From positions 310,001 through 374,000 of the forward strand of contig NZ_CP110820.1 in assembly GCF_034359465.1 (NCBI RefSeq): 64,000 nt of DNA, written 5' to 3'. Shown one piece after another: positions 10,649 through 45,004 of the stretch. A program made the position numbers and the translations under genes. This stretch comes from Candidatus Bandiella woodruffii. Lineage in GTDB: Bacteria; Pseudomonadota; Alphaproteobacteria; Rickettsiales; Midichloriaceae. How positions within the stretch are numbered: position 1 is the stretch's first letter; each line of letters starts with the position of its first letter. Below the pieces are notes generated by a model. That model was not told where the DNA came from and searched no databases. It saw only the letters and a list, made by a program, of their open reading frames with translations.

Positions 10649-10676
10649 TCCGCCATAAACGTAAGTGTTTTTTAGT

Positions 10677-11405
10677 ATGAGAATTGCAATTATAGGTTAC
10701 GGCAAAATGGGTAAAATGGTTGAGCAAGAAGCCTTAAATGCGTCCATACCTGTGTCTAAAGTTATTGATAATCAGGACGTTTTGTTAGCAAGTAGCTTTG
10801 ACAAAGATGAGGTTGCCATAGAGTTTACAGAGCCATCTGTATGTATTGCCAATATAGAAATACTTGCTTCTAAAGGGGTGAACATTATATGTGGTACCAC
10901 AGGGTGGCACGCAGACGTTGGGAAAGTCAAAAAGATAGTTAACGAACATAATATAGGTTTCTTGTACGCCACCAATTTTGGAATTGGAGTGAACATTTTT
11001 TGGAGAATTATCAAAAATGCCGCGCAAATTATAGATAAATTCGAAGAGTATGACATTTTTGGGCATGAGATTCACCATAGCAGAAAAAAAGATTCCCCGT
11101 CTGGTACGGCTTTAACGACAGTCCAGATTTTACTTGATAACGTAAGAAGAAAGCGCCAGCTGATTACCCAAATGGTTGATAGAGAAATCAGCGAAGATGA
11201 GTTGCACTTTAGTTCCACAAGGGGTGGTTATGTGTTTGGTAAACACGAAGTGGTGTTTGATGGGCCGTCTGATACTATTAAAATCTCACACAATTCTAAA
11301 GGACGCTCTTCTTATGCTAAAGGAGCAATTAATTGTGCCAGGTGGATTGAGGGCAAACAAGGGTTTTTTGACATTAATGATTATATGGAGGGACTATTAA
11401 TATGA
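10677..11405 (+). CDS. dapB: 4-hydroxy-tetrahydrodipicolinate reductase
   Basis: Second committed enzyme of lysine/DAP synthesis, NAD(P)H-dependent. It shows the Rossmann GYGKMGKM at the N-terminus, CGTTGW, and the signature EIHHSRKKDSPSGTA with the catalytic His-His pair and Lys. I start at the ATG at 10677 (MRIAIIGYG) rather than a GTG four codons earlier. Its stop overlaps the dapA ATG (ATGA). First gene of a four-gene dap operon. Confidence 0.94.
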   Translation: MRIAIIGYGKMGKMVEQEALNASIPVSKVIDNQDVLLASSFDKDEVAIEFTEPSVCIANIEILASKGVNIICGTTGWHADVGKVKKIVNEHNIGFLYATNFGIGVNIFWRIIKNAAQIIDKFEEYDIFGHEIHHSRKKDSPSGTALTTVQILLDNVRRKRQLITQMVDREISEDELHFSSTRGGYVFGKHEVVFDGPSDTIKISHNSKGRSSYAKGAINCARWIEGKQGFFDINDYMEGLLI

Positions 11406-12283
11406 AATTTTCTGGATTATACACTGCTTTGGTTACACCATTTAATGGTAATAAAAGCATAGATTATATCGCTCTTGACAAGTTGTTTGCAGAACAAGTT
11501 GAAGCTAGGGTGGATGGGTTGGTGATTTTGGGTACAACTGGGGAAAGCCCAACAGTTGATGAGCGAGAAGGTGAGGAGATTGTAAAACGTGCGGTAAAGG
11601 CTTCCAATGGAAAGGTCAAAATTATTATGGGAACTGGCAGCAATGATACTAAGATTGCAGTACAAAAAAGCAAAAAAGCGCAGGATTTAGGCGCAGATGC
11701 AATTCTTTGTGTAAACCCATATTACAACAAACCAACGCAGGAAGGTTTGTATCAACATTTCATGAGTATCGCAGATGGTAGTGATATACCTATGATATTA
11801 TATAATATCAAGGGTAGGACTGCGGTTAACCTTGAGATAAAAACATTAATGAAACTTGCTCAACACGAAAGAATAGTTGGAATAAAAGAAGCCAGCGGTG
11901 ATCTTGTGCAGATCATGAATGTAATAAAAAGCGTTCCACAGAATTTTGCTGTTCTGTCTGGTGATGATGTGCTTACATACCCTATTATGTGCCTTGGTGG
12001 GCATGGTGTGGTGTCTGTTGCATCTAATGTATTGCCGATGGAGATGAAGAATATGGTGTGGGAAATATTCACGGGTAATTTTGATTCAGCTAAAAAACGT
12101 CATTACAAGCTATATAACTTAATGATTTCGCTTCTGTCATTATCAAGCAACCCTATTCCTATTAAGTCACTATTGGCATATCTTGGTAAGATACAAGAAG
12201 AATTTAGGTTACCACTTTGTAGTATGAGCGAAGAGGCACGTGAAGAACTGGTAAAACATTATGAGGAGTCCATCAGTGGCTGA
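11402..12283 (+). CDS. dapA: 4-hydroxy-tetrahydrodipicolinate synthase
   Basis: Condenses pyruvate with aspartate semialdehyde. TIM-barrel enzyme with LGTTGESPT near residues 41-49, the tyrosine segment ILYNIKGRTAVN (usual YNVPGR) and the Schiff-base lysine in GIKEASGD near residue 161. Complete at 293 residues. Start overlaps dapB; dapF begins before its end. Confidence 0.95.
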   Translation: MKFSGLYTALVTPFNGNKSIDYIALDKLFAEQVEARVDGLVILGTTGESPTVDEREGEEIVKRAVKASNGKVKIIMGTGSNDTKIAVQKSKKAQDLGADAILCVNPYYNKPTQEGLYQHFMSIADGSDIPMILYNIKGRTAVNLEIKTLMKLAQHERIVGIKEASGDLVQIMNVIKSVPQNFAVLSGDDVLTYPIMCLGGHGVVSVASNVLPMEMKNMVWEIFTGNFDSAKKRHYKLYNLMISLLSLSSNPIPIKSLLAYLGKIQEEFRLPLCSMSEEAREELVKHYEESISG

Positions 12284-13145
12284 TTTCTATAAATATCATG
12301 GACTGGGTAACGATTATTTGGTTATTGATCCCAGAAAAATTAGTTTTGGTTTAAATCTTCACGAAGAAAATATCAGGCTGATTTGCCATAGAAATTATGG
12401 AATTGGGTCTGATGGAATTCTGTATGGTCCAATACAATGTAAGGATGGGGAGATTGGGTTTAAAATATTTAACCCAGATGGCTCTGAAGCGGAAAAAAGC
12501 GGTAACGGGATTAGAATCTTTGCGCTTTACGTGCTTGACCAATTATATGTAAACCCCGAGGCTTTTGAAAAAGAGAGCCCATATTTTAACCTTCATACTA
12601 AGGGAGGTAAAGTATGTGTTCAACTAATAGATGCAAAAACCAATACGATTAAAGTCGATATGGGTAAATATTCATTTATCACTTTAGACGGACTTGAAGC
12701 AATCAATAAGGAGATTAAAATATTAGGCCAGAGTGAAATGATCAGTTGTGTTGATATTGGCAATCCCCATTGTGTAGTCATTAAAGAAAAGGCAACTGAA
12801 GAGTTGGCAAGGCAGTTGGGGCCAGTTTTAGAGAATCACGAACTTTTTCCAAATAGAACCAATGTACAAATTATGGAGATTCTGGATCAATCCAATATTA
12901 AGATAGAGATATGGGAAAGAGGCGCTGGTTACACACTAGCATCTGGTACAAGCAGTTCTGCATCCAGTTGTGTTGCACATAAACTTGGTTTTGTTGGGAG
13001 GAGTGTAACTGTCCACATGCCTGGCGGAAAAGTCAATGTTGAGATAGCGAAGGAAAACGTGTATCTAACTGGTGTGGCTACACGAGTCTTCAAAGGTGAT
13101 TTTGCAAAAGATTTAAAATACCAATTAATAAGTAACAAGAGTTAA
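12276..13145 (+). CDS. dapF: Diaminopimelate epimerase-like protein lacking both catalytic cysteines
   Basis: DapF converts LL- to meso-diaminopimelate by a two-base mechanism using two cysteines. This 289-residue protein has the family frame from start (YKYHGLGNDYLV) to end, but the first active-site motif reads EKSGNGIR with Ser75 in place of Cys, and the second reads ERGAGYTLASGTSS with Ser223 in place of Cys (usual ACGTG). Both are seen directly in the DNA (AGC at 12498, TCT at 12942). The start is a GTG at 12276, preceded by GAGGAG at 12263-12268, inside the end of dapA. Fold and operon place it in DAP synthesis; whether it is an active epimerase is open. Confidence 0.82.
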   Translation: MADFYKYHGLGNDYLVIDPRKISFGLNLHEENIRLICHRNYGIGSDGILYGPIQCKDGEIGFKIFNPDGSEAEKSGNGIRIFALYVLDQLYVNPEAFEKESPYFNLHTKGGKVCVQLIDAKTNTIKVDMGKYSFITLDGLEAINKEIKILGQSEMISCVDIGNPHCVVIKEKATEELARQLGPVLENHELFPNRTNVQIMEILDQSNIKIEIWERGAGYTLASGTSSSASSCVAHKLGFVGRSVTVHMPGGKVNVEIAKENVYLTGVATRVFKGDFAKDLKYQLISNKS

Positions 13146-13146
13146 T

Positions 13147-14319
13147 ATGAAAATAATTTATTCAGATTTAATTAATGACACGCCAAAGTATGCATTTGCT
13201 GAAATAGATAAAAAAGCACAGGAGTTAAAAGCAAAAGGGATAGAGGTAATAGATTTTGGTGTGGGGGACCCGAAAAGTCCAACCCCAGATTTGGTAATTG
13301 ATAACTTGTCCAGGTTTGCAAAGGATAGGGCAACATCTGGATATCCTAGTTATATCGGGGATATTTCATACCGTAAGGCATGCGCTGAATATATAAAGAG
13401 GGAATATAACGTTGCACTCAATCCAGAAACCGAGATATCATCAACAATTGGTTCAAAGGAAGCAATTTTTAATTTTCCAATAGGTTTTGTTAATCCAGGA
13501 GATTTTGTTATATGCCCAACACCCGGATATCCAGTGTATAAATCAGGCACTAGATTTAGAGGGGGGGAGGCGTATTTTACACCGCTTCTTGAAAAGAACA
13601 AATTCTTAATAGACTTCTCATCAATTCCAGATGAAGTGGCGCGTAAGGCTAAGATTATTTGGACGAATTATCCCAATTCCCCAACAGGAGTTACGGCACC
13701 CAGAGAGTGGTTGCAGGATTTAGTCGCATGGGCAGAGGAGTATAATGTGATAATAGCTGCAGATGAGGGATGTTACAATGACATATATTTTGAGAAAAAG
13801 CCTATTAGTATCCTGGAGATTCAAAAAGAGGGGGTGATCACATTTTACTCACTTTCAAAACGTAGTAATATGACTGGGTATAGAATTGGTTTTGTTGCTG
13901 GTGATGAGAGAATTGTCTCTGGTTTCAAAAAGGTGAAAACAAACATTGATTCTGGAACTCCAACATTCATTCAGGATGTTGCGGTATTAGCCCTTAAAGA
14001 TGAAAGTGTAGTTTCTGAAATGATCGCTCAATACAAGCAAAAGCGTGATATTATGATGGACGTCTTAACTTCGAGAGGTTTGGAGAAACCAATTGGTGAT
14101 TCTACTTTTTATCTGTGGCAGAAAACGCCAAAAGGTATGAATAGTTTGGAGTTTGCCAATAGTTTGGCCGATCTTGGGATTATTGTAACCCCTGATCAGC
14201 TGATTTCTGACGAAGTTGGTGGAATAAATCCTGGTGAGAATTTTGTTAGATTTGCATTGGTTCCAACAATCGAAGAAGTTGTTGAAGCTGCAAAAAGAAT
14301 AAGGGGCAATAAATTTTAA
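13147..14319 (+). CDS. Class I/II aminotransferase of the DAP pathway (LL-DAP or N-succinyl-DAP aminotransferase type)
   Basis: PLP-dependent fold type I aminotransferase of 390 residues with IDFGVGDPKSPTP at the N-terminus, NYPNSPTGVTA, the Asp of AADEGCYNDI and the PLP lysine in SLSKRSNMTGYRIGF. It begins one base after the dapF stop. Because dapB, dapA and a dapF homologue precede it and no dapD or dapE is seen here, the one-step LL-DAP aminotransferase (DapL) route is the simplest reading; the SLSKRSNMTG motif is also found in the DapC (succinyl) type, so the exact substrate is not settled. Confidence 0.75.
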   Translation: MKIIYSDLINDTPKYAFAEIDKKAQELKAKGIEVIDFGVGDPKSPTPDLVIDNLSRFAKDRATSGYPSYIGDISYRKACAEYIKREYNVALNPETEISSTIGSKEAIFNFPIGFVNPGDFVICPTPGYPVYKSGTRFRGGEAYFTPLLEKNKFLIDFSSIPDEVARKAKIIWTNYPNSPTGVTAPREWLQDLVAWAEEYNVIIAADEGCYNDIYFEKKPISILEIQKEGVITFYSLSKRSNMTGYRIGFVAGDERIVSGFKKVKTNIDSGTPTFIQDVAVLALKDESVVSEMIAQYKQKRDIMMDVLTSRGLEKPIGDSTFYLWQKTPKGMNSLEFANSLADLGIIVTPDQLISDEVGGINPGENFVRFALVPTIEEVVEAAKRIRGNKF

Positions 14320-14746: not shown

Positions 14747-15578
14747 GGCTCTGTCGCATCTGTAATATGATGCAAAAACTTTCAAATTATTTGTATATTT
14801 TTCCATTAAGCAGTTAGTGAAAGAAATTTATCAAAGTCAGAATTATAATTGTCATTGTCAGCAAGTTGTCCTTTTTTAATCATGTGCAAGAGCTCTATTC
14901 CTGCAATAGTCCTGGCGGCACTTCTAAAGGATTTGAAACCAAGCATCGGTCTAGTTCGTTTCTTTACAAATCTGTGATCGCCTTCTATCCTATTGTTTAG
15001 ATATTTGTTATGCCTAATTTCTATTTGGTCTTCTTTAGATAATGGCTTATTGATCGAATTCAAAGCAGAAGTATTAGAGCCACTTTTATCTATATTAACC
15101 TTTATAGGCTGGCCACTAGATTTAATTGCTTTCCTGAAAAACGCTTTAGCTGCCCTTTTATCTCTTTTTGCTCTTAGCATAAAATCTATGGTATCCCCGT
15201 ATTTATCAACTGCTCTATACAAATAGACCCATTTACCTTTAACCTTGATATATGTCTCGTCCATTCTCCAGCTGCCGTTGACTGGCTTTTTTCTTTTTCT
15301 GAATCTTCCTTCAAGTATTGGCATAAACTTTACTACCCATCTTTGTAGAGTGGCGTGATCTATGTTGAGTCCTCTCAACCCGCCTATCTCTTCTATCTCT
15401 CTGTAACTTAAAGAATATCTTCCTTTCATATACAGCGATACCATAATGATTTCTGCGCCATATTCATGGTTCTTAAAATACTTCATTAATTTTGGGTCTA
15501 CTTTAAACATTATTACCAGCAACTATTTCTTTCAGAATATCAAAAATTCTTATGTGTTTCAACAGATGCGACAGAACC
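14747..15578 (-). mobile_element. IS6-type element, copy 1 (complete, 832 bp)
   Basis: Ends are 17-bp inverted repeats GGYTCTGTCGCATCTGT (left end with C, right end with T). It carries one DDE transposase. Left flank is the GTA gene stump and right flank is the interior of an IS1-type element, with no matching 8-bp direct repeat, so the flanks have been rearranged. The same element recurs at 31255, 34995, 36940, 40705, 57489, 57596, 57686 and 63589. Confidence 0.93.
14806..15510 (-). CDS. IS6 family transposase (copy 1)
   Basis: 234 residues from the ATG of MFKVDPKL. An N-terminal helix-turn-helix (SYREIEEIGGLRGLNIDHATLQRW) precedes the DDE core: WRMDETYIKVKGKWVYLYRAVD (first Asp), NIDKSGSNTSA (second Asp) and the Glu in NRIEGDHRFVKKR. 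These are the marks of IS6/IS26-type enzymes. Copies at 35063, 37008, 40764 and 57745 encode the same protein. Confidence 0.93.
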   Translation of the reverse strand: MFKVDPKLMKYFKNHEYGAEIIMVSLYMKGRYSLSYREIEEIGGLRGLNIDHATLQRWVVKFMPILEGRFRKRKKPVNGSWRMDETYIKVKGKWVYLYRAVDKYGDTIDFMLRAKRDKRAAKAFFRKAIKSSGQPIKVNIDKSGSNTSALNSINKPLSKEDQIEIRHNKYLNNRIEGDHRFVKKRTRPMLGFKSFRSAARTIAGIELLHMIKKGQLADNDNYNSDFDKFLSLTA

Positions 15579-17456: not shown

Positions 17457-18290
17457 GATAATGTCGTCATGAGATTTTAAGCCAAAGAGATAAGCATCTA
17501 ATCTGAATTGCGGCAAGGAAAGAAGCTGAATTTTTAGCATATCTGGTTGCAATTCCCCTCCATCTTTTAAGATGAAGAAAGGTGTTTTCTACAATATGCC
17601 TTATTTTGTATAAATCTTTATCGTATTTTCTCTGGGTGATTCTGTTCTTTTTAGGAGGAATAACAACGCTCATGCCCAATTCTTGGGCATGGTCAATTAT
17701 GTAATTAGCATCGTACCCTCTGTCGGCTAGTAAGTACTCAGCTTTCATCTCTTCAATAAGATTAACAGCCTGCTTGCAATCAGCTTCTGAGCCTTTTGTG
17801 ATAATAACTTTGAGTGGCATACCATGTGAATCCAAGGCAAGGTGAATCTTTGTATTGAGCCCCCTTTTGTACGACTCATATCTTGATTGCCGCCTTTTGC
17901 ACCTGAAGCATGTGGATGCACTTTACTATGACTTGCGTCTATCATTAACCATTCCATATCAGGTTCTTTCACAAATATCTCCAATAAAGCCTCCCATATC
18001 CTTTTGTCTCTCCATCTGCAAAATCTTTTATGTGTATTTTTCCATCCTCCATATTCTGAAGGCAAATCTCTCCAGGGAGAACCTGTTCTTAATATCCAAA
18101 ATACTGCGTTAATGAATCTTCTGTTATTATGTGCCAAACCTCCCCACGTACCTTCCCTTCCTGGCAAATGATCCTTTATCAAATCCCACATATTATCTGT
18201 TATATCATGCCTATGTAGCCCTAAATCCATTTTTACTCCTGATTTATCTTTTCTTTCATATTATACCACAAATCTCATGACGACACTATC
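17457..18290 (-). mobile_element. IS5/IS427-type element, copy 1 (834 bp)
   Basis: Termini are GATARTGTCGTCATGAGATT in inverted orientation; insertions sit at TA, giving a TA duplication. Left flank GCTTA, right flank TAAAGGTTG which is the interior of an IS1-type element. The flanks do not form one insertion site. Other copies: 18492, 45035, 49691, 63188 (cut), and end fragments at 19370 and 40639. Confidence 0.9.
17467..18230 (-). CDS. IS5 family transposase, two overlapping frames (copy 1)
   Basis: ORF A (17745-18230, 161 aa) has DITDNMWDLIKDHLPGREG and the first catalytic Asp in MIDASHSKVHPHA; ORF B (17467-17835) has LADRGYDANYI (second Asp) and the Glu in RHIVENTFLHLKRWRGIATRY. The frames join by a -1 shift at the run AAAAGGGGG, which restores GGLNTKIHLALDSHGMPL, the normal IS427-group sequence. 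A TATAAT and an AGGAG ribosome site precede the ATG inside the element. Confidence 0.88.
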
Positions 18291-18491
18291 TAAAGGTTGT
18301 AACGTTACGCTTACCAACCACCCAGGCAACAACTCTCTTGAGCTCCCTACTATAGGCTTTCCATATCCATAATTTGTTTTTTTGAATCTACAAAATGCCA
18401 CATCTCATCTATTTCAACTTCTCTCAATTCTTCCGGCACTGTTGGTCTTGGTATCTTTTTAGCATACAGTATTATCCACTTATATACGCTA
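18291..18491 (-). mobile_element. IS1-type element, internal fragment trapped between two IS5-type copies
   Basis: Two hundred bases identical to the middle of the IS1-type element (including the seven-A run), bounded on both sides by IS5-type termini at TA sites (TTCTAAAGG and CGCTAGTAT in the intact element). The outer halves of the IS1 element are not next to the other IS5 ends, so recombination between IS5 copies followed the insertions. Confidence 0.88.
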
Positions 18492-19325
18492 GATAGTGTC
18501 GTCATGAGATTTGTGGTATAATATGAAAGAAAAGATAAATCAGGAGTAAAAATGGATTTAGGGCTACATAGGCATGATATAACAGATAATATGTGGGATT
18601 TGATAAAGGATCATTTGCCAGGAAGGGAAGGTACGTGGGGAGGTTTGGCACATAATAACAGAAGATTCATTAACGCAGTATTTTGGATATTAAGAACAGG
18701 TTCTCCCTGGAGAGATTTGCCTTCAGAATATGGAGGATGGAAAAATACACATAAAAGATTTTGCAGATGGAGAGACAAAAGGATATGGGAGGCTTTATTG
18801 GAGATATTTGTGAAAGAACCTGATATGGAATGGTTAATGATAGACGCAAGTCATAGTAAAGTGCATCCACATGCTTCAGGTGCAAAAGGCGGCAATCAAG
18901 ATATGAGTCGTACAAAAGGGGGCTCAATACAAAGATTCACCTTGCCTTGGATTCACATGGTATGCCACTCAAAGTTATTATCACAAAAGGCTCAGAAGCT
19001 GATTGCAAGCAGGCTGTTAATCTTATTGAAGAGATGAAAGCTGAGTACTTACTAGCCGACAGAGGGTACGATGTTAATTACATAATTGACCATGCCCAAG
19101 AATTGGGCATGAGCGTTGTTATTCCTCCTAAAAAGAACAGAATCACCCAGAGAAAATACGATAAAGATTTATACAAAATAAGGCATATTGTAGAAAACAC
19201 CTTTCTTCATCTTAAAAGATGGAGGGGAATTGCAACCAGATATGCTAAAAATTCAGCTTCTTTCCTTGCCGCAATTCAGATTAGATGCTTATCTCTTTGG
19301 CTTAAAATCTCATGACGACATTATC
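18492..19325 (+). mobile_element. IS5/IS427-type element, copy 2 (834 bp)
   Basis: Complete copy in inverted orientation to copy 1. Its left flank is IS1-type DNA in minus orientation, while its right flank (TAAGTGAGCAGGG) is the far end of an IS1-type element in plus orientation. Confidence 0.92.
18552..19315 (+). CDS. IS5 family transposase, two overlapping frames (copy 2)
   Basis: ORF A 18552-19037 and ORF B 18947-19315, joined by the same -1 shift site as copy 1. One residue differs in ORF B (DVNYI for DANYI). Confidence 0.88.
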
Positions 19326-19432: not shown

Positions 19433-21037
19433 TTTAAGAAGACTGGGATGTTGGCGAAGGCATCTAGGGTGGAGTCACAGGCATCATCGCCACTTGGGAA
19501 TTGGATACCGGCACTTAAGCGAGAAGCGAAGGAATGGGAATTTGTGAGGGAGCAATTAGAAAAGAATGAGAGGTTGGTGAGGACTGGAATGCAGATAGTG
19601 CTTATAGATAGAAAAGAGAGTATAGGATCATCTGAGCAAATAATGAATAGTTTGTATAGAGCGAATGGATGGGAGTTAAAGAGAGATAGGTTTGTGGTGA
19701 TGTTATCACTTAAGAGTATATTGCCGTTATCATGGGGAGAAGATATGGCGTTAGATATGAGTTACTTAAAGAAGTTAAGAACGACACTATCGCATGAGCC
19801 TGTTAACATGATGCCACTACAAGGAGAGTCAAAGGGATGTAAAAAGGCAGGAATGTTGCTTGCAGGAAGGAGAGGGCAGTTATACTACTGGTATCCATTT
19901 GATGAGAGTTTAGGAAATACAAATTACAATGTATCGGTAGTAGGAAGGAGTGGAGCTGGGAAGTCAGTATTTATGCAGGAGCTTGCGGTAAGTATACTTA
20001 GGAGGGGAGAGAAGGTATATGTACTTGATGTGGGAAGGAGTTTTGAGAAGCAGGTTAAGATGTTAGATGGGCAGTTTATAGAATTTAGCACGGAATCAGG
20101 ATTATGTTTAAATCCATTTAGCAGTATAGATGAGAGGTCAAAGGAGCATATAGAGGATGCGCTATCGGTAATGAAGCCAATAATAAGTATGATGGCAGCA
20201 CCGAAAGAAGGGACAAGTAGTTATGAAGATTCATTGATAGAGAAGGCGTTAATGGAAGTGTGGAGTGAGAAAGGATCTAAAGCAGGAATTGGAGAAATAG
20301 CTGAGTGGTTTTTGAATCAGGAAGAGGATAGAGTTACGTGTCAAAGGATAGGGACGATGTTATTTCCATATACGAGGGATGGAGCGTACGGGAAATATTT
20401 TAATGGTAAGGCTAATATAGATTTTAGTGCGAGATTTTTTGTAACAGAATTAGAGGAGTTAAAGAGTAAGAAGGATTTGCAGAGAGTTGTAGTACAGATA
20501 TTGATGTTACTGATTACAAATCAGGTGATACTTGGAGGAAGGAAGGTAGAGAGTGCAATAATATTTGATGAGGCATGGGACTTACTTAAGGGTAAGCAGG
20601 GAGGAGAATTTATAGAGAGGCTTGCAAGAACGCTTAGAAAGTATAGAGGAGCGCTGGTGGTGGGAACACAGAATCTAGATGATTTTTATTCAAGTCCTGG
20701 AGCTGAGGCTGCATTTATGAATAGTGATTGGTTATGTTGTTTGAAGCAGAAGAGTGAATCGATAGCGTTACTTAAGAAGAGTGAAAAATTTAAGATCAAT
20801 GATTATCAGCAGAAAATGTTAGAGTCGGTAACGTCAAAGCCTGGTGAGTATTCAGAAGTGATGATAATGACATCTGAGCATGCGAGCATAGGTAGATTGA
20901 TGCTTGAACCATTTTCTAGGGTGTTATATTCAACAAAGCCGGAGGAGTATGAGAGAGTTAAGAGATATGGGGGAGATGGGAAGAAGTTAGAAGAGGCTGT
21001 TGAGCAGGTAGCGAAGGAGATGTATGGAGATGGTTAG
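19433..21037 (+). pseudogene. traC: F-type conjugation ATPase TraC, 5'-truncated
   Basis: TraC is the VirB4-like ATPase that energises F-type pilus assembly. About 534 residues remain of a protein usually above 800. Visible are VVGRSGAGKSVFMQELA (Walker A), SAIIFDEAWDLLKGKQGG (Walker B) and LRKYRGALVVGTQNLDDF near the C-terminus. The N-terminal region is replaced by IS ends. The coding strand is strongly purine-rich and uses AGA/AGG heavily, unlike the housekeeping genes. It overlaps the start of traW. Confidence 0.88.
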
Positions 21038-21740
21038 GAAGAATCATAGTAAAAACCAGAAAATAGAAGATAAGGTTTACTCTTGGGTTAGAGTTATAAC
21101 GACAACTGGTATCGCTATAGTAGGGGTAGCGATGTTAATAGTAATATGTTTTTTAATACTTTCAATTAATGCAAAGGCAAAAGATTTTGGAGTGGTGGGA
21201 AGGACGAGTGAAATTAAGGAAGTAGATGCGATAGAGGAGATAAAGGGAAAGTTAAGTGATATGGAGGCAAGGGGAGAGTTGGATGAGCATAACGAGAGAA
21301 TGAAGAAAGAGGTAAGTGATAGAATTAAGAGTCCTAAATCTTTGAATTTAGGAAGGGCTAGTGAAGTAAAGGAATATGAATATGATCCGAGCATAGAGGT
21401 AAAGGAAGATTTAAGAGACGCAAGAGGTATAGTGTTCCATAGGAAGGGAACAAAGGTAAATCCACTGGATGTGGTTAGTATGCCATATGAGTTAATATTT
21501 TTTGATGGGGAAGACGAGGATCAATTAAAGTATGTAATTAAAAAATACGAAGAATCAGAAATAAAGCCAAAGTTAATATTAACAGGAGGATCTCCTGTTA
21601 AATTAGAAGAGGAATATAAATTAGATTTTTACTTTGATCAAAGAGGAGTTCTGATAAAGCAGCTTGGGATAAAAGCAGTTCCTGCGATAGTTATGCAAGA
21701 TGGGAAGGTACTCAAGATAAGGGAGGTGATGGTAAGATGA
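21030..21740 (+). CDS. traW: F-type conjugation protein TraW (island 1)
   Basis: Periplasmic pilus-assembly protein. A signal/anchor helix at about residues 22-45 ends in SINAKA; the mature part has KDFGVVG, a long charged helix, YDPSIEV followed by HRKGTKVNPLD and the C-terminal YFDQRGVLIKQLGIKAVPAIV, all TraW hallmarks. It begins inside the end of traC, downstream of AAGGAG, without the S26 peptidase gene that precedes traW in island 2. The second ATG at 21030 has better ribosome-site spacing than that at 21024. traU would normally follow but here an antisense gene does. Confidence 0.85.
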   Translation: MVRKNHSKNQKIEDKVYSWVRVITTTGIAIVGVAMLIVICFLILSINAKAKDFGVVGRTSEIKEVDAIEEIKGKLSDMEARGELDEHNERMKKEVSDRIKSPKSLNLGRASEVKEYEYDPSIEVKEDLRDARGIVFHRKGTKVNPLDVVSMPYELIFFDGEDEDQLKYVIKKYEESEIKPKLILTGGSPVKLEEEYKLDFYFDQRGVLIKQLGIKAVPAIVMQDGKVLKIREVMVR

Positions 21741-21742
21741 AG

Positions 21743-22069
21743 TTAAAGAAGTTTCAGCGCAATTCCAACTGCAATACCGACGATAGTAAGCATCATAGGG
21801 ACAATCCATTTAAGCATATCATGTTTAATACTAGAGATGCTTTCTTTGAGTTCAGATTTAAGTTCGATAATCTTTTTCTCAAGATTAGATTCGACCTTAT
21901 CAATTTTACCGTCAAGTTTTGCAACCTGTTCACGAGTAGCAAGAATAGAGAGGTCAAAGTCTCTGGATTCAAGAAGGGATTTAACAAGCATTTCAGCTTG
22001 TTTTTCATTAAAGCCACTTTCTTGAAGGCTTTTAATGTATTTATGAGTATCAAAAGTTTTATAATGCAT
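21743..22069 (-). CDS. DUF1640/CCDC90-like coiled-coil membrane protein, antisense within tra island 1
   Basis: 108 residues starting MHYKTFDTHKYIKSLQ with GFNEKQAEMLV, then a long coiled coil and a single C-terminal transmembrane helix (WIVPMMLTIVGIAVGIAL). This is the DUF1640 layout, related to the mitochondrial CCDC90/MCUR1 family. AGAGG five bases before the ATG at 22069 supports that start over 22090. Its stop is 2 bases from the traW stop (convergent). A homologue holds the same place in island 2 (56732-57121). Function unknown. Confidence 0.75.
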   Translation of the reverse strand: MHYKTFDTHKYIKSLQESGFNEKQAEMLVKSLLESRDFDLSILATREQVAKLDGKIDKVESNLEKKIIELKSELKESISSIKHDMLKWIVPMMLTIVGIAVGIALKLL

Positions 22070-22272
22070 AGTAACCTCTTCGTCTTTCATAAAAAAGTAA
22101 GTAGTGTAATTCGTAATTCATGTAATGAGTGTAGCATAGATATAGAGAAAAATCCAGAAGAAAGCAACATCCATATAGAAGCTCACAGGCGGTATGAAGT
22201 CATAAGGTTTGGAAAAAATAGTGGGCCCACCTGTAAGCAACAATGTGACCGATTAAAGTATATAAAACCATT
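22070..22272 (+). other. Unrecognised coding-like stretch upstream of IS1 copy
   Basis: On the plus strand a frame from an ATG at 22064 stays open to the IS1-type element and contains CNECSIDIEKNPEES and GPTCKQQCDRLKYIKP. In island 2 this position is the start of traU, but this sequence does not look like TraU. It could be a displaced fragment of another tra gene. Confidence 0.3.
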
Positions 22273-23058
22273 GGGAGTGTTGCCATAAGATAGATAAGAT
22301 GCTAAAATGAATATAGCGAGCAACAAAGAAAATAGAGATATGAATACAGAGTGTAAAAAATGCAGTAGCAGTAAATACGTTAAGAATGGTAATATTAGGG
22401 GTATGCAAAGGTATAAATGCAAAGAGTGTGGATGTAATTTTACAAACACTAAATTAAGAGGCTGTTCGCCAGAGATGAAGGCTCTGGCAGTGTTATTGTA
22501 CAGCATGGGAAAAAGTAGCTTTAGATGGCTAGGGAAATTATTTAAAGTAGCTCATACTAGCGTATATAAGTGGATAATACTGTATGCTAAAAAGATACCA
22601 AGACCAACAGTGCCGGAAGAATTGAGAGAAGTTGAAATAGATGAGATGTGGCATTTTGTAGATTCAAAAAAACAAATTATGGATATGGAAAGCCTATAGT
22701 AGGGAGCTCAAGAGAGTTGTTGCCTGGGTGGTTGGTAAGCGTAACGTTACAACCTTTAGAAAATTGTGGAAAATCATAAGTAGAGATAATTGCACTTATT
22801 ACACAGACGATTGGTCTGTTTATTCAGAGGTTATACCTCGCCATCAACATGTTGTTGGCAAACAACATACACTCTCAATTGAGTCCAATAACTCAAACAC
22901 AAGGCACAGAATTGCAAGAATGACCAGAAAAACAAAGGTAGTTTCAAAATCTGAAGAAGTTGTCGATCTTACGATTAAGCTCTGGGTACATTTTGAGGAT
23001 AACAATAATTTCCTAAGTGAGCAGGGCAATTTTATATCTATCTTTGGCTAACACTCTG
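22273..23058 (+). mobile_element. IS1-type element, copy 2 (786 bp)
   Basis: Complete copy between GGGAGTGTTGCC and its imperfect inverted partner (TAGCCAAAG complement side, ending ACACTCTG). The frameshift run is A7. No direct repeat is evident in the flanks (AAAACCATT left, AATTCAAAT right). Confidence 0.9.
22307..23051 (+). CDS. IS1 family transposase, two frames (copy 2)
   Basis: First ORF 22307-22699 (zinc ribbon and HTH, ending just past the A7 run at 22666-22672), second ORF 22728-23051 (DDE part with YYTDDWSVYSEVIP and IESNNSNTRHRIARMTRKTK). With seven A the second frame is +1 (or -2) to the first, so fusion needs a shift other than the -1 known for IS1. Confidence 0.87.
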
Positions 23059-23322
23059 AATTCAAATAGACCAGGAAGAGCTGATTTAATAATTAGCAGC
23101 GGCTCAAATAGTGCTCCATGTTGGCGATTATATCCGAATAACGGTCAAAATCACTATGATTATGTGGGAAAAGATGCCGGGTCATATTTAAGAGAAGGCT
23201 GGAATGAGATAGAAATAGAATTAGTATATTCTTGGGAAGGTCAAGTAAATGTGGTTTTTGAAGCAGAGCAGTATTGTTGTAAAGAATGGAGTGATGAATG
23301 GGATGGAGATTGTCCGCTATGA
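23059..23322 (+). pseudogene. traN: Fragment resembling the middle part of TraN
   Basis: An open frame entering from the IS1-type element, with no start of its own: it contains DYVGKDAGSYLREGWNEIEI and ends QYCCKEWSDEWDGDC, which resembles the lectin-like/cysteine segment CCxxWxxxWxxxC of TraN mating-pair proteins. The stop TGA overlaps the ATG of the next gene (ATGA at 23319), hinting at translational coupling. Confidence 0.5.
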
Positions 23323-24728
23323 TAATAAAAGGCAATAAATTGGTAAAAATGGAAAGCTCGGGATCTTGGGGGTATAGATATTTTAAAATCCTGCTACTGG
23401 GAATTGCGTTAATAATGACATTAATAATTATTTTAATACTTTCAATTAATGCAAAGGCGGAAGATGTTGGAGTATCAGGGGAAGGTTATAAAGTAAGTGA
23501 AGATATGGATGAATTGATAGAAAAAGCAAGGAAAGAGCGAGAAGAAAAAGAAGTAGAGTTAAATGGGAAGTGTGAGAGGGTTGGAAGGGATTGCATAGAG
23601 CCAGGAGCAAGCAGAGTAATAAATGGAAAAACTGTTTACAGGGACTGTTGGAGATATAAGGATGCATATAGATGTAAGGGATATGCAAGGAATAACTGCA
23701 CGGAATATGATGATGCATCATATTGCAATCTAAAGAGTACAGAATGCAAAAAGAAGGTGGGAGATTGGTGCGTGGCGCAGAATAGAGTATATAATTGTGA
23801 AGAAAGTGAGAAATATATAAGAAAGGAGAAGAGGTATAGGCCTCCATCATTTAAAAGGGATAACATAGAAGAGAGAAAGAGAGTTGTGTGTGGGGAGGAA
23901 ATAAAGTGCATAGATGGAAAATGCTTTGATATGAGTTACAAGGCAAATGATGAGATGGGGAACGCTGCAGGGATGTTGGCTACACTTAAGGAGATGCAGG
24001 GTGAGTGGAAAGCTAATGGTTCGGTGTTTAAGGGTAATAATGAAAAATGTGATAATAAGATAACAAATTGGACAAATTGCTGTGAAGATATGGGGGGATG
24101 GGGAGAAATATTAGGAGCAAAATGTAGTGCAAGAGATAAGAATCTGGCAAAGATGAAGCAGGAGGAAAGGTGCATAGAAATAGGGACGTACTGTAGTAGT
24201 GAGCTATTGGGAGCATGTATAATAGAGAGAACAACATATTGTTGTTATGATTCGAAAATAGCGAGGGAGATAAATAAGCAGTCAAGGGAGAAAGGATTAA
24301 TAAATAAGGGATGGGGAGATGTAGAGTCACCAAATTGTAATGGATTTAACATAGAGGAGCTACAAGGTATAGATTTTGAAAAGATAGATTTTGAGTTTTT
24401 GTCAGAAGATATTAAGAAAAAGAATATATGGAGCAGGATGGGAGATATGAAGAAGGCGCTTGAGCATACGCAAAGATTAATGGAAGGAGAGATTAATACA
24501 ATTAAAAAGGAGGTGATGGCAGAGGGTGGCACAGGTACTGTTACAGAAGATATAAATGAGCAGATAGATGATCAGAAGTTATATGAGAAGAAGTTTGCTG
24601 AAGCAGAGGATTTAAACGAAAGTAGGCAAAAAAAGCCAGATGGAAGAGATAAGAGCAAAGATACAAAAGATGCAGAGACTTTATACAATAAGGAAGAGTG
24701 TAAAAATAGGGATAATGGGGGATTATAA
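23319..24728 (+). CDS. traN: TraN-like mating-pair stabilisation protein, C-terminal half with its own signal anchor
   Basis: 469 residues, rich in cysteine: CWRYKDAYRCKGY, NCCEDMGGWGEILGAKCS, YCCYDSKIAREINKQSREKG and CNGFNIEELQGIDFEKIDF are typical of the C-terminal half of TraN, the outer-membrane protein that stabilises mating pairs. Unusually it opens with a fresh transmembrane or signal segment ending ILSINAKAED, nearly the same as the leader of traW at 21030. The C-terminal tail is a charged coil. The normal N-terminal half of TraN lies separately at 26589-27206 on the other strand. Confidence 0.75.
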   Translation: MIIKGNKLVKMESSGSWGYRYFKILLLGIALIMTLIIILILSINAKAEDVGVSGEGYKVSEDMDELIEKARKEREEKEVELNGKCERVGRDCIEPGASRVINGKTVYRDCWRYKDAYRCKGYARNNCTEYDDASYCNLKSTECKKKVGDWCVAQNRVYNCEESEKYIRKEKRYRPPSFKRDNIEERKRVVCGEEIKCIDGKCFDMSYKANDEMGNAAGMLATLKEMQGEWKANGSVFKGNNEKCDNKITNWTNCCEDMGGWGEILGAKCSARDKNLAKMKQEERCIEIGTYCSSELLGACIIERTTYCCYDSKIAREINKQSREKGLINKGWGDVESPNCNGFNIEELQGIDFEKIDFEFLSEDIKKKNIWSRMGDMKKALEHTQRLMEGEINTIKKEVMAEGGTGTVTEDINEQIDDQKLYEKKFAEAEDLNESRQKKPDGRDKSKDTKDAETLYNKEECKNRDNGGL

Positions 24729-36939: not shown

Positions 36940-37771
36940 GGTTCTGTCGCATCTGTTGAAACACATAAGAATTTTTGATATTCTGAAAGAAATAGTTGCT
37001 GGTAATAATGTTTAAAGTAGACCCAAAATTAATGAAGTATTTTAAGAACCATGAATATGGCGCAGAAATCATTATGGTATCGCTGTATATGAAAGGAAGA
37101 TATTCTTTAAGTTACAGAGAGATAGAAGAGATAGGCGGGTTGAGAGGACTCAACATAGATCACGCCACTCTACAAAGATGGGTAGTAAAGTTTATGCCAA
37201 TACTTGAAGGAAGATTCAGAAAAAGAAAAAAGCCAGTCAACGGCAGCTGGAGAATGGACGAGACATATATCAAGGTTAAAGGTAAATGGGTCTATTTGTA
37301 TAGAGCAGTTGATAAATACGGGGATACCATAGATTTTATGCTAAGAGCAAAAAGAGATAAAAGGGCAGCTAAAGCGTTTTTCAGGAAAGCAATTAAATCT
37401 AGTGGCCAGCCTATAAAGGTTAATATAGATAAAAGTGGCTCTAATACTTCTGCTTTGAATTCGATCAATAAGCCATTATCTAAAGAAGACCAAATAGAAA
37501 TTAGGCATAACAAATATCTAAACAATAGGATAGAAGGCGATCACAGATTTGTAAAGAAACGAACTAGACCGATGCTTGGTTTCAAATCCTTTAGAAGTGC
37601 CGCCAGGACTATTGCAGGAATAGAGCTCTTGCACATGATTAAAAAAGGACAACTTGCTGACAATGACAATTATAATTCTGACTTTGATAAATTTCTTTCA
37701 CTAACTGCTTAATGGAAAAATATACAAATAATTTGAAAGTTTTTGCATCATATTACAGATGCGACAGAGCC
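36940..37771 (+). mobile_element. IS6-type element, copy 4 (832 bp)
   Basis: Complete. Its right flank CCTATAAT (37772-37779) is the reverse complement of the right flank of copy 5 (ATTATAGG, 41537-41544): the two halves of one original 8-bp target duplication now separated by inversion. Confidence 0.94.
37008..37712 (+). CDS. IS6 family transposase (copy 4)
   Basis: Intact 234-residue enzyme, identical in the key motifs to copy 1. Confidence 0.93.
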   Translation: MFKVDPKLMKYFKNHEYGAEIIMVSLYMKGRYSLSYREIEEIGGLRGLNIDHATLQRWVVKFMPILEGRFRKRKKPVNGSWRMDETYIKVKGKWVYLYRAVDKYGDTIDFMLRAKRDKRAAKAFFRKAIKSSGQPIKVNIDKSGSNTSALNSINKPLSKEDQIEIRHNKYLNNRIEGDHRFVKKRTRPMLGFKSFRSAARTIAGIELLHMIKKGQLADNDNYNSDFDKFLSLTA

Positions 37772-41763: not shown

Positions 41764-43566
41764 ATGGATGATTTTGGGAATAGCTTCAGAAATTTTGTTT
41801 TGGCAGTATTTCTAGGAGCTGTGCTGCTTTTGCTTAGTTTGTATATATCAGGGATTATTTTGACATTTTTGGAATACAAACAATTGACCGAAGATTTTGC
41901 TTTATCCATAAAACCAATTGAGACATTAATAGAATTGGTTGAATTTTGGATTATTAATTACAGTACGATTGATTTGCAGTATGATAACTATTTTGTAGCT
42001 AGAGTTATAGGTTCTATATTGGGACCGTTAGTTATTATAGGATGGTGCACTTTTCATTATAAATCAGCCATTTATGCACTTAGACCATATAAAAAGAAAG
42101 AAGCTGTGCATGGAGATGCAAGATGGGCAACAGAAGAAGACATAAAAAAAGCAAGATTAAGAGTGAAAAAAGGAATGCTATTGGGGCGGGATAGCAAAGG
42201 CTTTCTTGTGGCAGACGGATATCAACACACATTGCTTTTCGCTCCAACCGGTTCTGGTAAAGGGGTTGGGTTTGTAATTCCTAATCTACTTTATTGGGAA
42301 GATTCTGTGGTGGTGCATGACATCAAGTTAGAGAACTATGAATTAACTTCTGGTTGGCGTAAGAAAATGGGGTAGCAAGTGTTCGTATGGAGCCCTGCAA
42401 ACCCAGATGGAAATACTCATTGTTATAACCCTATTGACTGGATAAGCAATAAACCTGGTCAAATGGTGGACGATGTTCAAAAAATAGCAAGTCTTATCAT
42501 GCCAGAAAAGGAGTTTTGGAATAATGAAGCTCGATCACTCTTTGTGGGGGTGGTGCTGTATCTGCTAGCTGATAAAAACAAGGTTAAGTCATTTGGAGAA
42601 GTTGTAAGAACTATGCGTAGCGATGACGTTGTGTATAATTTAGCGGTTGTGCTTGACACCATGGGAAATGAAATACACCCTGTGGCGTATATGAATATAG
42701 CTGCGTTTTTGCAAAAAGCAGATAAAGAAAGGTCTGGCGTAATCTCAACGATGAACTCAAACTTAGAACTTTGGTCTAATCCGCTGATTGACACAGCAAC
42801 CGCATCAAGCGACTTTAGTGTATTGGATTTTAAGAAAAAACTAACAACAGTGTACGTAGGGCTGACTCCAGATAACCTCAAGAGGTTACAGCCTTTAATG
42901 CAGGTGTTTTATCAGCAGGCAACGGAATTTTTCTCCAGAAAACTCCCAAGCGATGATGAACCATATGGTGTGATGTTTATGATGGATGAGTTTCCAACGC
43001 TTGGAAAAATGGAGCAGTTCATGACAGGTATCGCTTACTTTCGTGGGTACCATGTAAGGTTGTTTTTGATTATACAAGATACGCAGCAGCTAAAAGGAAT
43101 ATATGAAGAGCATGGAATGAACTCATTTTTATCAAACTCAACATATAGGATTACTTTCGCTGCTAATAACTATGAAACCGCGAATTTAATTTCACAACTA
43201 TGTGGTAACAAAACAGTTGAGCAAATTTCACAAAACAAACCAAAGTTTTTGGATTTCAACCCAGCTTCCAGGTCTCTTAGTGTTTCAAATACACAAAGGG
43301 CTTTGCTTCTTCCGCAAGAAGTAATAAACTTGCCTAGAGATGAGCAGATACTTTTAATTGAATCCAGCCCTCCTATAAAATCGCAAAAAATCAAATACTA
43401 CGAGGACTCCATGTTTAAGAAAAGGTTATTAAAACCAACTACAATTCCTCAACAAGAACCTTTTGATATAAATAAATTCAGGCAGAGTATGACGTCCAAT
43501 AAAAACAAAGCGCAATCTACGGAAAAAGAGCAGGAGACTTTAAGTATTGAGAGTGAAAACAGCTAA
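41764..43566 (+). pseudogene. virD4: Type IV secretion coupling protein VirD4 with an in-frame amber codon
   Basis: VirD4 is the membrane ATPase that feeds substrates to the vir-type T4SS. Part one (41764-42375, 203 aa) has the two N-terminal membrane segments, GDARWATEEDI and Walker A LLFAPTGSGKGVGFVIPN; the TAG at 42373-42375 falls inside GWRKKMG-stop-QVFVWSPANPDG, where homologues have a residue such as Gln or Glu. The same frame continues to 43566 with MFMMDEFPTLGKM (Walker B) and the C-terminal charged tail. Nothing else is damaged, so the lesion is a single substitution. Unless suppressed, the ATPase domain is cut off. A downstream start at 42379 lacks Walker A. Confidence 0.87.
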
Positions 43567-43573
43567 GAGAGAA

Positions 43574-45004
43574 ATGGAGATAGAACAACTTTTAAAAAGG
43601 GTTACTGGCATTGCGGATAACTCAGAAAACGTTAGAGAAGGGTTTGCTTTTTTTGCGCTTTCTGGTTCTCAGAATGATGGACTGGATTACATTGAGCATG
43701 CCATTAAAAATGGAGCTAAATTTGTGATTTTGGATCAAAACGCAACATTACCAAAAAAATATGATGGTGCTGTTGAGTTTATTAAAGTTGATAACCCAAG
43801 AAGCTATATTAGTTTGGCTTCCTCAATATTTTATAAGGAAAAACCTCAATATATTGTTGCTGTTACTGGGACAAATGGCAAAACCTCTGTAGCAAATTTT
43901 TTTCAGCAAATCTGCGATTTAACAGGATATAAAAGCGCATCTATTGGAACTCTTGGTGTCATCACTTCAGAACAACAATATGAGGCCAAAGATCAACCGT
44001 CATTAACGTCGCCCTGTGCCATAGAGTTGCATGAAATTTTGCATAACTTAAGCAACAGCTCATACACGCATGCATCGATAGAAGCATCCAGTCATGGCTT
44101 GCGCCAACACAGGCTTGATCATGTAAATTTTCAAGCCGCAGGGTTTACAAACTTAACCCAAGATCATTTAGATTACCATGGCACTATGGAAGAATATTTT
44201 GCTGCTAAGTTACGATTGTTTGACGAGGTTTTAAAACCCGGAAGCTATGCAGTTTTAAATGCTGACACCAATGAGTTCCAACGCATGAAAGACATCTGCA
44301 ACAGTCGCTCAATCAAAGTACTGGATTATGGCAAAAAGGCAAAAGAGTTGCAAATTGTATCTTCTTCTGGTGTTTTGGAAGTTCAAGTTTTCGGCCAAAA
44401 GTATAAATTACAACCAACTGTTAAAGGGGAATTTCAGTTGTATAACATTTTGTGTTCTACAGGACTAGCAGCGGCTTGCGAACTGCCAGTCAATAAGATT
44501 TTAGATGCACTAAACGATCTAAAAGCAGCAAAAGGACGTTTAGAACTAGTTGCAAAACATAATGGTGCTGATGTTTATGTGGACTATGCACATACCCCAG
44601 ATTCTCTCCAAACTATATTGACAACCTTGCGTCAGATATGTAAAGGAGAACTGCATGTGCTTTTTGGTTGTGGAGGTAATAGAGATGCTACGAAAAGACC
44701 TATTATGGGAGAAATTGCAAGTAGATGCGCAGATCATATCATCATAACAGACGATAACCCACGAAAAGAACATTCGGATGCCATCAGAAAGGAAATTATG
44801 GCTGCTTGTAATAATGGTGTTGAAATTGAGGGCAGAGCTAATGCCATAGAATACGCAATGAGCCATTTAAAAGAGAATGATATATTGGTGATTGCTGGAA
44901 AGGGACATGAAAATTATCAATTGATAGGAAACAGCCAAACATATTTCAGCGATTTTGATGAAGTTCTAAAAATCTCAACTAGAGGCTCTAGCAAATTAGC
45001 ATAA
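43574..45004 (+). CDS. murE: UDP-MurNAc-L-Ala-D-Glu:meso-DAP ligase MurE
   Basis: 476 residues from the ATG at 43574 (preceded by AGAGAGAA), with the ATP loop AVTGTNGKTS, HASIEASSHGL, LTQDHLDYHGT and, near the C-terminus, DNPRKE, the motif that marks ligases using meso-diaminopimelate rather than lysine. This ties peptidoglycan to the dap operon at 10.7-14.3 kb. It begins seven bases after virD4. Confidence 0.93.
   Translation: MEIEQLLKRVTGIADNSENVREGFAFFALSGSQNDGLDYIEHAIKNGAKFVILDQNATLPKKYDGAVEFIKVDNPRSYISLASSIFYKEKPQYIVAVTGTNGKTSVANFFQQICDLTGYKSASIGTLGVITSEQQYEAKDQPSLTSPCAIELHEILHNLSNSSYTHASIEASSHGLRQHRLDHVNFQAAGFTNLTQDHLDYHGTMEEYFAAKLRLFDEVLKPGSYAVLNADTNEFQRMKDICNSRSIKVLDYGKKAKELQIVSSSGVLEVQVFGQKYKLQPTVKGEFQLYNILCSTGLAAACELPVNKILDALNDLKAAKGRLELVAKHNGADVYVDYAHTPDSLQTILTTLRQICKGELHVLFGCGGNRDATKRPIMGEIASRCADHIIITDDNPRKEHSDAIRKEIMAACNNGVEIEGRANAIEYAMSHLKENDILVIAGKGHENYQLIGNSQTYFSDFDEVLKISTRGSSKLA

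Follow-up and report, generated by a model that had tools for sequence, protein, structure and literature searches.

A clade of DapF homologues, represented here by a 289 aa protein of Candidatus Bandiella woodruffii, carries serine in place of both catalytic cysteines. By descent, fold and substrate site these proteins are DapF; they fail the two-thiol criterion and are hence not canonical DapF, and are called DapF-S here. We infer, with a probability of roughly 60%, that DapF-S is an LL/meso-DAP epimerase in which the serine pair serves as acid and base in place of the thiols. That it epimerises DAP by whichever residues is inferred with greater assurance and appears quite probable. Activity data are available for neither statement. 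Canonical DapF is the standard example of a two-thiol epimerase, and it is also a target for antibacterials.

The dapF gene and its neighbours

The window is the whole stretch of DNA that was analysed, 64,000 nucleotides of contig NZ_CP110820.1. It contains the following features:

10665..11405, + strand: dapB, first gene of the set (TIGR00036, 157.7 bits, cut-off 122)
11402..12283, + strand: dapA, overlapping dapB by 4 and dapF by 8 bases (TIGR00674, 335.7 bits, cut-off 206.15)
12276..13145, + strand: dapF homologue of the Ser/Ser clade, 289 aa (TIGR00652, 225 bits, over the cut-off; Ser/Ser alignment; AlphaFold2 model with pLDDT 91.8)
12498..12500, + strand: Ser75 codon AGC, first catalytic Cys position (sequence; alignment to solved DapFs)
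12942..12944, + strand: Ser223 codon TCT, second catalytic Cys position (sequence; alignment to solved DapFs)
13147..14319, + strand: aminotransferase gene, 1 base after dapF and beside dapF in relatives, too (NF006756, 414.1 bits, below the cut-off of 507; TIGR03540, 405.7 bits, below 593.25)
43547..45004, + strand: murE with DNPRKE, the presumed meso-DAP consumer (NF001124, 543.6 bits, cut-off 476; motif)

The frame of the dapF homologue is open and intact. The start that fits its homologues is a GTG at 12276 (MADFYKYHGLGNDY); the mechanical ORF list has an ATG at 12261. The criterion of a full-length family match is met: The alignment to TIGR00652 (cut-off 114.65) covers profile positions 2-268 of 270, and Pfam PF01678 is matched with 170.9 bits (cut-off 34.7). 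dapB, dapA, dapF and the aminotransferase gene form a tight set: The first three overlap successively, by 4 and 8 bases, and a single base separates dapF from the last. A sequence-only reading of the window had named these neighbours correctly. Both dapB and dapA score above their cut-offs. The families nearest to the aminotransferase are LL-DAP aminotransferases, yet it stays under their curated cut-offs. The same reading had proposed a MurE with the meso-DAP motif DNPRKE; the motif is present, and the score against the DAP-ligase equivalog supports it.

Directly before murE, at 41764-43566, a VirD4-like coupling protein gene is found as two consecutive ORFs matching profile parts 6-208 and then 211-597 of 657; judged by this arrangement, it is a split or broken gene. 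F-type conjugation genes are located at 21024-24728, with traW (21024-21740) above and a traN-like gene (23298-24728) below the cut-off. Two transposase copies lie in inverted orientation at 17467-19315: The proteins of the 161-aa ORFs at 17745-18230 (-) and 18552-19037 (+) are identical, and those of the 122-aa ORFs at 17467-17835 (-) and 18947-19315 (+) differ in one residue. Five ORFs of exactly 238 aa, starting at 14806, 35051, 36996, 40764 and 57745, look like repeated copies; of these, 36996-37712 was scanned and proved to be a transposase of the IS6 family.

Serine at both catalytic positions

Alignments to solved DapFs, among them those of Anabaena (9mro) and Arabidopsis (3ejx), show Ser75 of the motif EKSGNGIR and Ser223 of the motif TLASGTSS where these enzymes have their two catalytic cysteines. 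This confirms the double replacement that had first been read from the window itself. Two facing catalytic cysteines, a criterion for DapF, are thus lacking in the window protein, as in all 96 distinct rows of the clade. The codon count is limited to sequences matching the motif patterns, 74 distinct ones. Ser75 is encoded by AGY in 57 and by TCN in 17 of them, Ser223 by TCN in 72 and by AGY in 2. Both codon families occur at both sites, and no single base change links them without leaving serine. On this codon evidence, serine itself seems to have been kept, i.e. to be under selection, at positions 75 and 223.

In Anabaena DapF, the distal amino acid is described as bound via N66, N164, N197, E215 and R216, the proximal amine via N13, and the proximal carboxylate via helix-end amides and T226 (PMC12039745). 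The matching residues N12, N66, N163, N196, E214 and R215 are invariant in the 96 Ser/Ser rows, which meets the DAP-contact criterion. Position 225 is T in the window protein and either T or S throughout the clade (S in 87 of 96 rows). The AlphaFold2 model aligns with 9mro over 268 residues (Z 34.4, rmsd 2.4), and the criterion of a two-domain pseudosymmetric DapF fold is met. Ser75 and Ser223 are predicted directly before helices 76-88 and 224-236; the thiols of DapF are reported to be located directly before helices likewise (PMC12039745).

The serines did not change alone. The comparison set comprised 50 distinct Cys/Cys rows, mostly from the order Rickettsiales and from Verrucomicrobiota (L021, L025 and L026-L028 were left out). 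Relative to it, Y7, Y14, K74, S75, I81, Q198, E211 (97%), Y219, S223 and S226 are fixed in the Ser/Ser clade, and Y7, K74, I81, Q198, E211, Y219 and S226 do not occur in the respective columns of the Cys/Cys rows. K74 and Y219 are each found in 96/96 Ser/Ser and 0/50 Cys/Cys rows, Y14 in 94/94 and 5/50. Position 226 is Ser in 96/96 Ser/Ser rows, and Gly or Ala in 50/50 Cys/Cys rows. Since K74, Y219 and Y14 changed along with the serines, a DAP epimerase with other acid/base residues (Lys74, Tyr14, Tyr219 or Cys37) is conceivable, in which the serines only polarise or position. Cys37 is the only invariant cysteine (94/94 Ser/Ser rows; Cys166 reaches 90/96), which adds to this possibility. Cys37 is, however, also present in 25 of the 50 Cys/Cys rows, whose catalytic cysteines are elsewhere, and hence looks structural. 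Its distance to the substrate was not computed, and it is not excluded from the active site. Other acid/base residues remain unlikely, albeit worth keeping in mind, because the serines are modelled exactly at the places of the thiols before the two helices and are invariant through both codon families.

Comparison with known enzymes

Canonical DapF (TIGR00652/PF01678; Anabaena 9mro, H. influenzae 1gqz) and the window protein have the fold, the full-length family match, the DAP-contact residues and the dap operon in common. They differ in both catalytic positions and in the clade-fixed residues that are absent from Cys/Cys rows. The best structural match of the model is O-ureidoserine racemase (7vdy; Z 35.2, rmsd 1.9 over 266 residues, 29% identity), a cysteine enzyme. 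The H. influenzae variants C73S and C217S (2q9h, 2q9j; Z 32.9 and 32.4) have serine at one of the same two positions. These changes are engineered and single-site, whereas those in the clade are natural, conserved, present at both sites and accompanied by further changes. Single Cys-to-Ser changes are reported to hinder catalysis in DapF-type enzymes (PMC12039745), which counts against a Ser/Ser mechanism, as does the high pKa of serine (PMC8142540).

A partial precedent comes from enzymes that share the overall fold (Z 24-26) at only 11-16% identity and act on other substrates, the 4-hydroxyproline epimerases and t3HypD. Here, serine is described as a natural acid/base replacing cysteine: 4-hydroxyproline epimerase has a Ser/Cys pair, and trans-3-hydroxyproline dehydratase a Ser/Thr pair (PMC4113996). 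In the former, Ser93 is on one face and Cys opposite, numbered 255 in the text and 236 in the legend of that paper (PMC4113996). By analogy, a Ser/Cys epimerase of the same fold may support Ser/Ser in part. A Ser/Ser pair is not described for the proline racemase superfamily in the available portion of the same paper (PMC4113996). According to it, the catalytic serine of the superfamily is positioned by an Asn three residues on (PMC4113996). This criterion is not met by DapF-S: Ser226 stands at this distance after Ser223 and Gly78 after Ser75, both invariant in the clade. The spacing of Ser226 is analogous to that of the superfamily Asn for Ser223 only, not for Ser75. No report of a Ser/Ser DapF was found in the open-access literature (preprints excluded; judged on titles, abstract openings and counts).

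Extent of the Ser/Ser clade

A search of genome contigs for related loci yielded 34, with the Ser/Ser pair in 32 and Cys/Cys in the other 2. By their labels, the records with Ser/Ser belong to Alpha- and Gammaproteobacteria, Bacillota, Thermodesulfobacteriota, Verrucomicrobiota, Planctomycetota, Bacteroidota, Fibrobacterota (Chitinispirillia), WOR-3, KSB1 and Myxococcales, i.e. about ten phyla. Labels from single records may be wrong, since many hosts are metagenome bins. In Verrucomicrobiota, 178 of 193 sampled genomes match the Ser/Ser profile. All 42 matches at 297-451 bits are Ser/Ser; the other matches listed have at most 247 bits, and the 26 that were read are all Cys/Cys. In Rickettsiales, the order of the window, 115 of 131 genomes match: Six at 406-450 bits are Ser/Ser, the rest score at most 209 bits, and four fetched from the latter read Cys/Cys. 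The nearest named relatives of the window's protein are those of Ca. Bandiella numerosa and Ca. Aquarickettsia rohweri, from which a Midichloriaceae-like host within Rickettsiales is inferred.

The tree of Ser/Ser homologues that had been suggested at the outset comprised 93 of 144 rows after thinning by identity, and the columns of the catalytic motifs were excluded from it. A branch with SH-aLRT 100 separates the Ser/Ser rows from the others; one state change suffices. Of 100 loci, 98 were readable (the fragments L150 and L151 lack the motifs), and mixed Ser/Cys or Cys/Ser DapFs were not found in any of these 98. In-frame TGA codons as selenocysteine were considered for rows flagged '1 TGA' and rejected: Those that were read (L148, L153, L155, L156) have plain Ser or Cys at the catalytic positions.

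Sequencing error, pseudogene or contamination could be suspected, as several host records are metagenome bins. This explanation can practically be dismissed: The frame is intact, the clade is kept across phyla and in isolate records, and the window's genome is 99.97% complete with this single DapF match.

Two Bacillota records (G039 and G042; loci L034, L037, L063, L064 and L203), one of them Desulfosporosinus sp. FKB, contain a Ser/Ser and a Cys/Cys dapF together. A host of this type makes a side-by-side comparison possible within one organism. In addition, a WOR-3 bin (G041) without a LysA match has two Ser/Ser dapF genes (L036, L038).

DapF-S, usually the only DapF match in its genome

The window's genome (1.23 Mb, 3 contigs) encodes the Ser/Ser protein as its single DapF match. 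A second, Cys-containing dapF, for which a full-genome search had been recommended, was not found at the sensitivity of the family model, and Ddh has no match in this genome. One LysA scores above the cut-off (343 vs 297.9 bits). The sequence-only reading had left the choice between a serine-using or neofunctionalised clade and another epimerase. The clade is supported by the tree, and in this genome the second half of the alternative found no support as far as DapF and Ddh are concerned; no activity has been shown. Four genomes of the same family (G007, G011, G016 and G018), each at least 97% complete, have no DapF match by either query, so that the pathway seems to have been lost repeatedly in this family.

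For a broader view, TIGR00652 was run on 32 Ser/Ser genomes and 46 further ones. Five duplicates with coinciding match coordinates (the Rickettsiales pairs G009/G034, G017/G035, G020/G036, G021/G040 and G324/G038) leave 73 distinct genomes, 67 of which have no other kind of DapF match. The second dapF reads Cys/Cys in G039, G042, G052 and G056; in G049 it is in two pieces with Cys seen at the second site only, and in G176 the other match has 156 bits and its motifs were not read. Ddh exceeds its cut-off in six different genomes (3/32: G043, G048, G064; 3/42: G082, G144, G163, in a set that repeats G053). These six and the six with another DapF match do not overlap, and in both groups the epimerase may be a protein other than the Ser/Ser one. 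In 61 of 73 genomes, a further DapF match and Ddh above the cut-off are both absent. Genes missing from incomplete bins escape such a count: Completeness values are available only for the window's genome and its Rickettsiales relatives, and the Verrucomicrobiota sample was requested at completeness 90 without per-genome values.

These numbers bear on the possibility that DapF-S binds DAP without epimerising it and that another enzyme, e.g. a broad racemase, provides meso-DAP. The six genomes with Ddh would fit, as would the hindrance of canonical DapF-type enzymes by single Cys-to-Ser changes (PMC12039745). The 61 genomes with neither alternative speak against it, although broad racemases were outside the search, and so do contact residues kept across phyla and a gene kept in DAP operons. 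We give little credence to such a mere binder.

The remaining pathway is less uniform. A LysA-like match was found in 28 of 31 Ser/Ser genomes (G037 left out), above the cut-off in 14; none was detected in the Ser/Ser-only genomes G041, G045 and G063 among these 31. In Verrucomicrobiota, a profile of a single LysA subtype matches all 42 Ser/Ser genomes; the lowest-scoring match (G149) is divided into two pieces. Strict DapL (TIGR03542) exceeds its cut-off in 25 of 66 Ser/Ser genomes, and the window's genome is not among them. Both the three genomes without LysA and the low share above the cut-off count against a serine-based DAP epimerase. Furthermore, the DapL result leaves the route to LL-DAP open elsewhere, including the window's genome.

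Operon context and substrate

The order dapB-dapA-dapF-aminotransferase is kept in L001-L005, L029-L031 and L035; in L033 no dapA is seen, and L032 begins inside dapF. The Cys/Cys loci L006-L028 have no dapB, dapA or aminotransferase neighbours at E 1e-8 in the roughly 1.5 kb on either side. A KSB1 record has dapB-dapA-dapF-dapL-lysA (dapL 559 bits; lysA 240 bits, below the cut-off), a Bacteroidetes record dapF-dapL, and a Myxococcales contig dapF, dapL in two pieces and lysA. Most other Ser/Ser neighbours scanned are unrelated genes; in two records a MurC/Mpl-like ligase adjoins. Operons with dapA, dapB, dapL or lysA tie the Ser/Ser clade to DAP synthesis. Together with the conserved DAP contacts, they favour 'serine-using' over 'neofunctionalised', without any activity having been shown.

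In two Rickettsiales families (f1 and f2), Ser/Ser genera are found alongside Cys/Cys genera. It looks as if the native Cys/Cys gene was replaced by an incoming operon in both. This replacement is an inference and argues for the same function. In the placozoan Trichoplax sp. H2, the nuclear genome is reported to carry dapF and lysA of bacterial origin, and a rickettsial symbiont to make lysine (PMC6879607).

Alternatively, DapF-S might have acquired a new job, i.e. another stereoisomer, another substrate or an elimination, with LysA or the wall changed to match. Several positions shifted together, some Ser/Ser genomes encode a LysA with unusual motifs, some host groups are described with no or little DAP (PMC5303756, PMC3035286), and C. 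minuta is described with LL-DAP in its wall (PMC7937921). Nevertheless, the residues that bind the distal part of DAP have stayed the same, a DAP-type MurE and a LysA above the cut-off are encoded in the window's genome, and Ser/Ser replaces Cys/Cys within families. The LysA type with EPGT is, moreover, present in Cys/Cys genomes, too (G157, G220, G237, G249). A new job is thus improbable.

This LysA type has EPGT replacing EPGR and occurs in several Ser/Ser genomes (Opitutales-like, KSB1, Myxococcales). As a joint substrate change with DapF-S it was rejected: The subtype is shared by the four Cys/Cys genomes (547-644 bits), and its scores drop to about 126-175 bits in many of the other Ser/Ser genomes. 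In three further Ser/Ser genomes (G061, G046, G044), the best LysA-like proteins (L172, L173, L174) have ECGR or ESGR and CENND; most other rows have EPG and CES. To judge by these motifs, the three may be another decarboxylase.

DAP in the cell wall of host groups

Verrucomicrobia subdivision 4 was described as devoid of DAP; in one study, TLC revealed no DL-DAP, but GC/MS gave 3-7 nmol DAP vs 63 in E. coli, in addition to ornithine, and the authors concluded that sacculi are present (PMC5303756). Coraliomargarita akajimensis is described as lacking DAP (PMC3035286). Named records in which Ser/Ser is the sole DapF match include those of Cerasicoccus arenae, Opitutales bins and a Puniceicoccaceae isolate. 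Low or undetected DAP would be compatible with a slow enzyme and equally with LL-DAP in the wall; the Ser/Ser gene is not established for the strains with wall data. A Christensenella record (G043) has both Ser/Ser and Ddh; only one genome of Christensenellaceae was covered. Wall data on C. intestinihominis were discarded as evidence, as the paper contradicts itself, with meso in the results and LL in the description (PMC7937921).

A possible mechanism and its meaning

In the mechanism we propose, the products of the neighbouring dapA, dapB and aminotransferase genes would make LL-DAP, which DapF-S would convert into meso-DAP for MurE and LysA. The substrate would be bound as in DapF, with the distal amino acid held by N66, N163, N196, E214 and R215 and the reacting carboxylate at the N-termini of the two opposed helices next to T225. 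Ser75 and Ser223, at the helix starts on opposite faces of the alpha-carbon, could then act as base/acid pair replacing the thiols. S226, three residues after S223, may orient S223 like the Asn of the superfamily, and the clade-fixed K74, Y14 and Y219 may tune the pair.

Taken further, this would be a natural cofactor-independent epimerase with a serine pair and no catalytic thiol, present in many phyla and providing, in dozens of genomes, all the meso-DAP that wall and lysine require, a claim to which we assign even odds. If true, it would show that a pair of hydroxyls can invert an unactivated alpha-carbon placed between them. Covalent aziridine inhibitors are described to attack the thiols of DapF (PMC12039745), and the Ser/Ser clade would be expected to escape thiol-directed inhibitors. 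The DapF family model scores Ser/Ser genes as DapF without flagging the change. As a natural collection, the clade lends itself to finding out which accompanying changes allow Ser/Ser to function. It also bears on DAP synthesis in groups described with little or no wall DAP: If the reading is true, a slower Ser/Ser rate could help to explain low or undetected DAP in some of these hosts.
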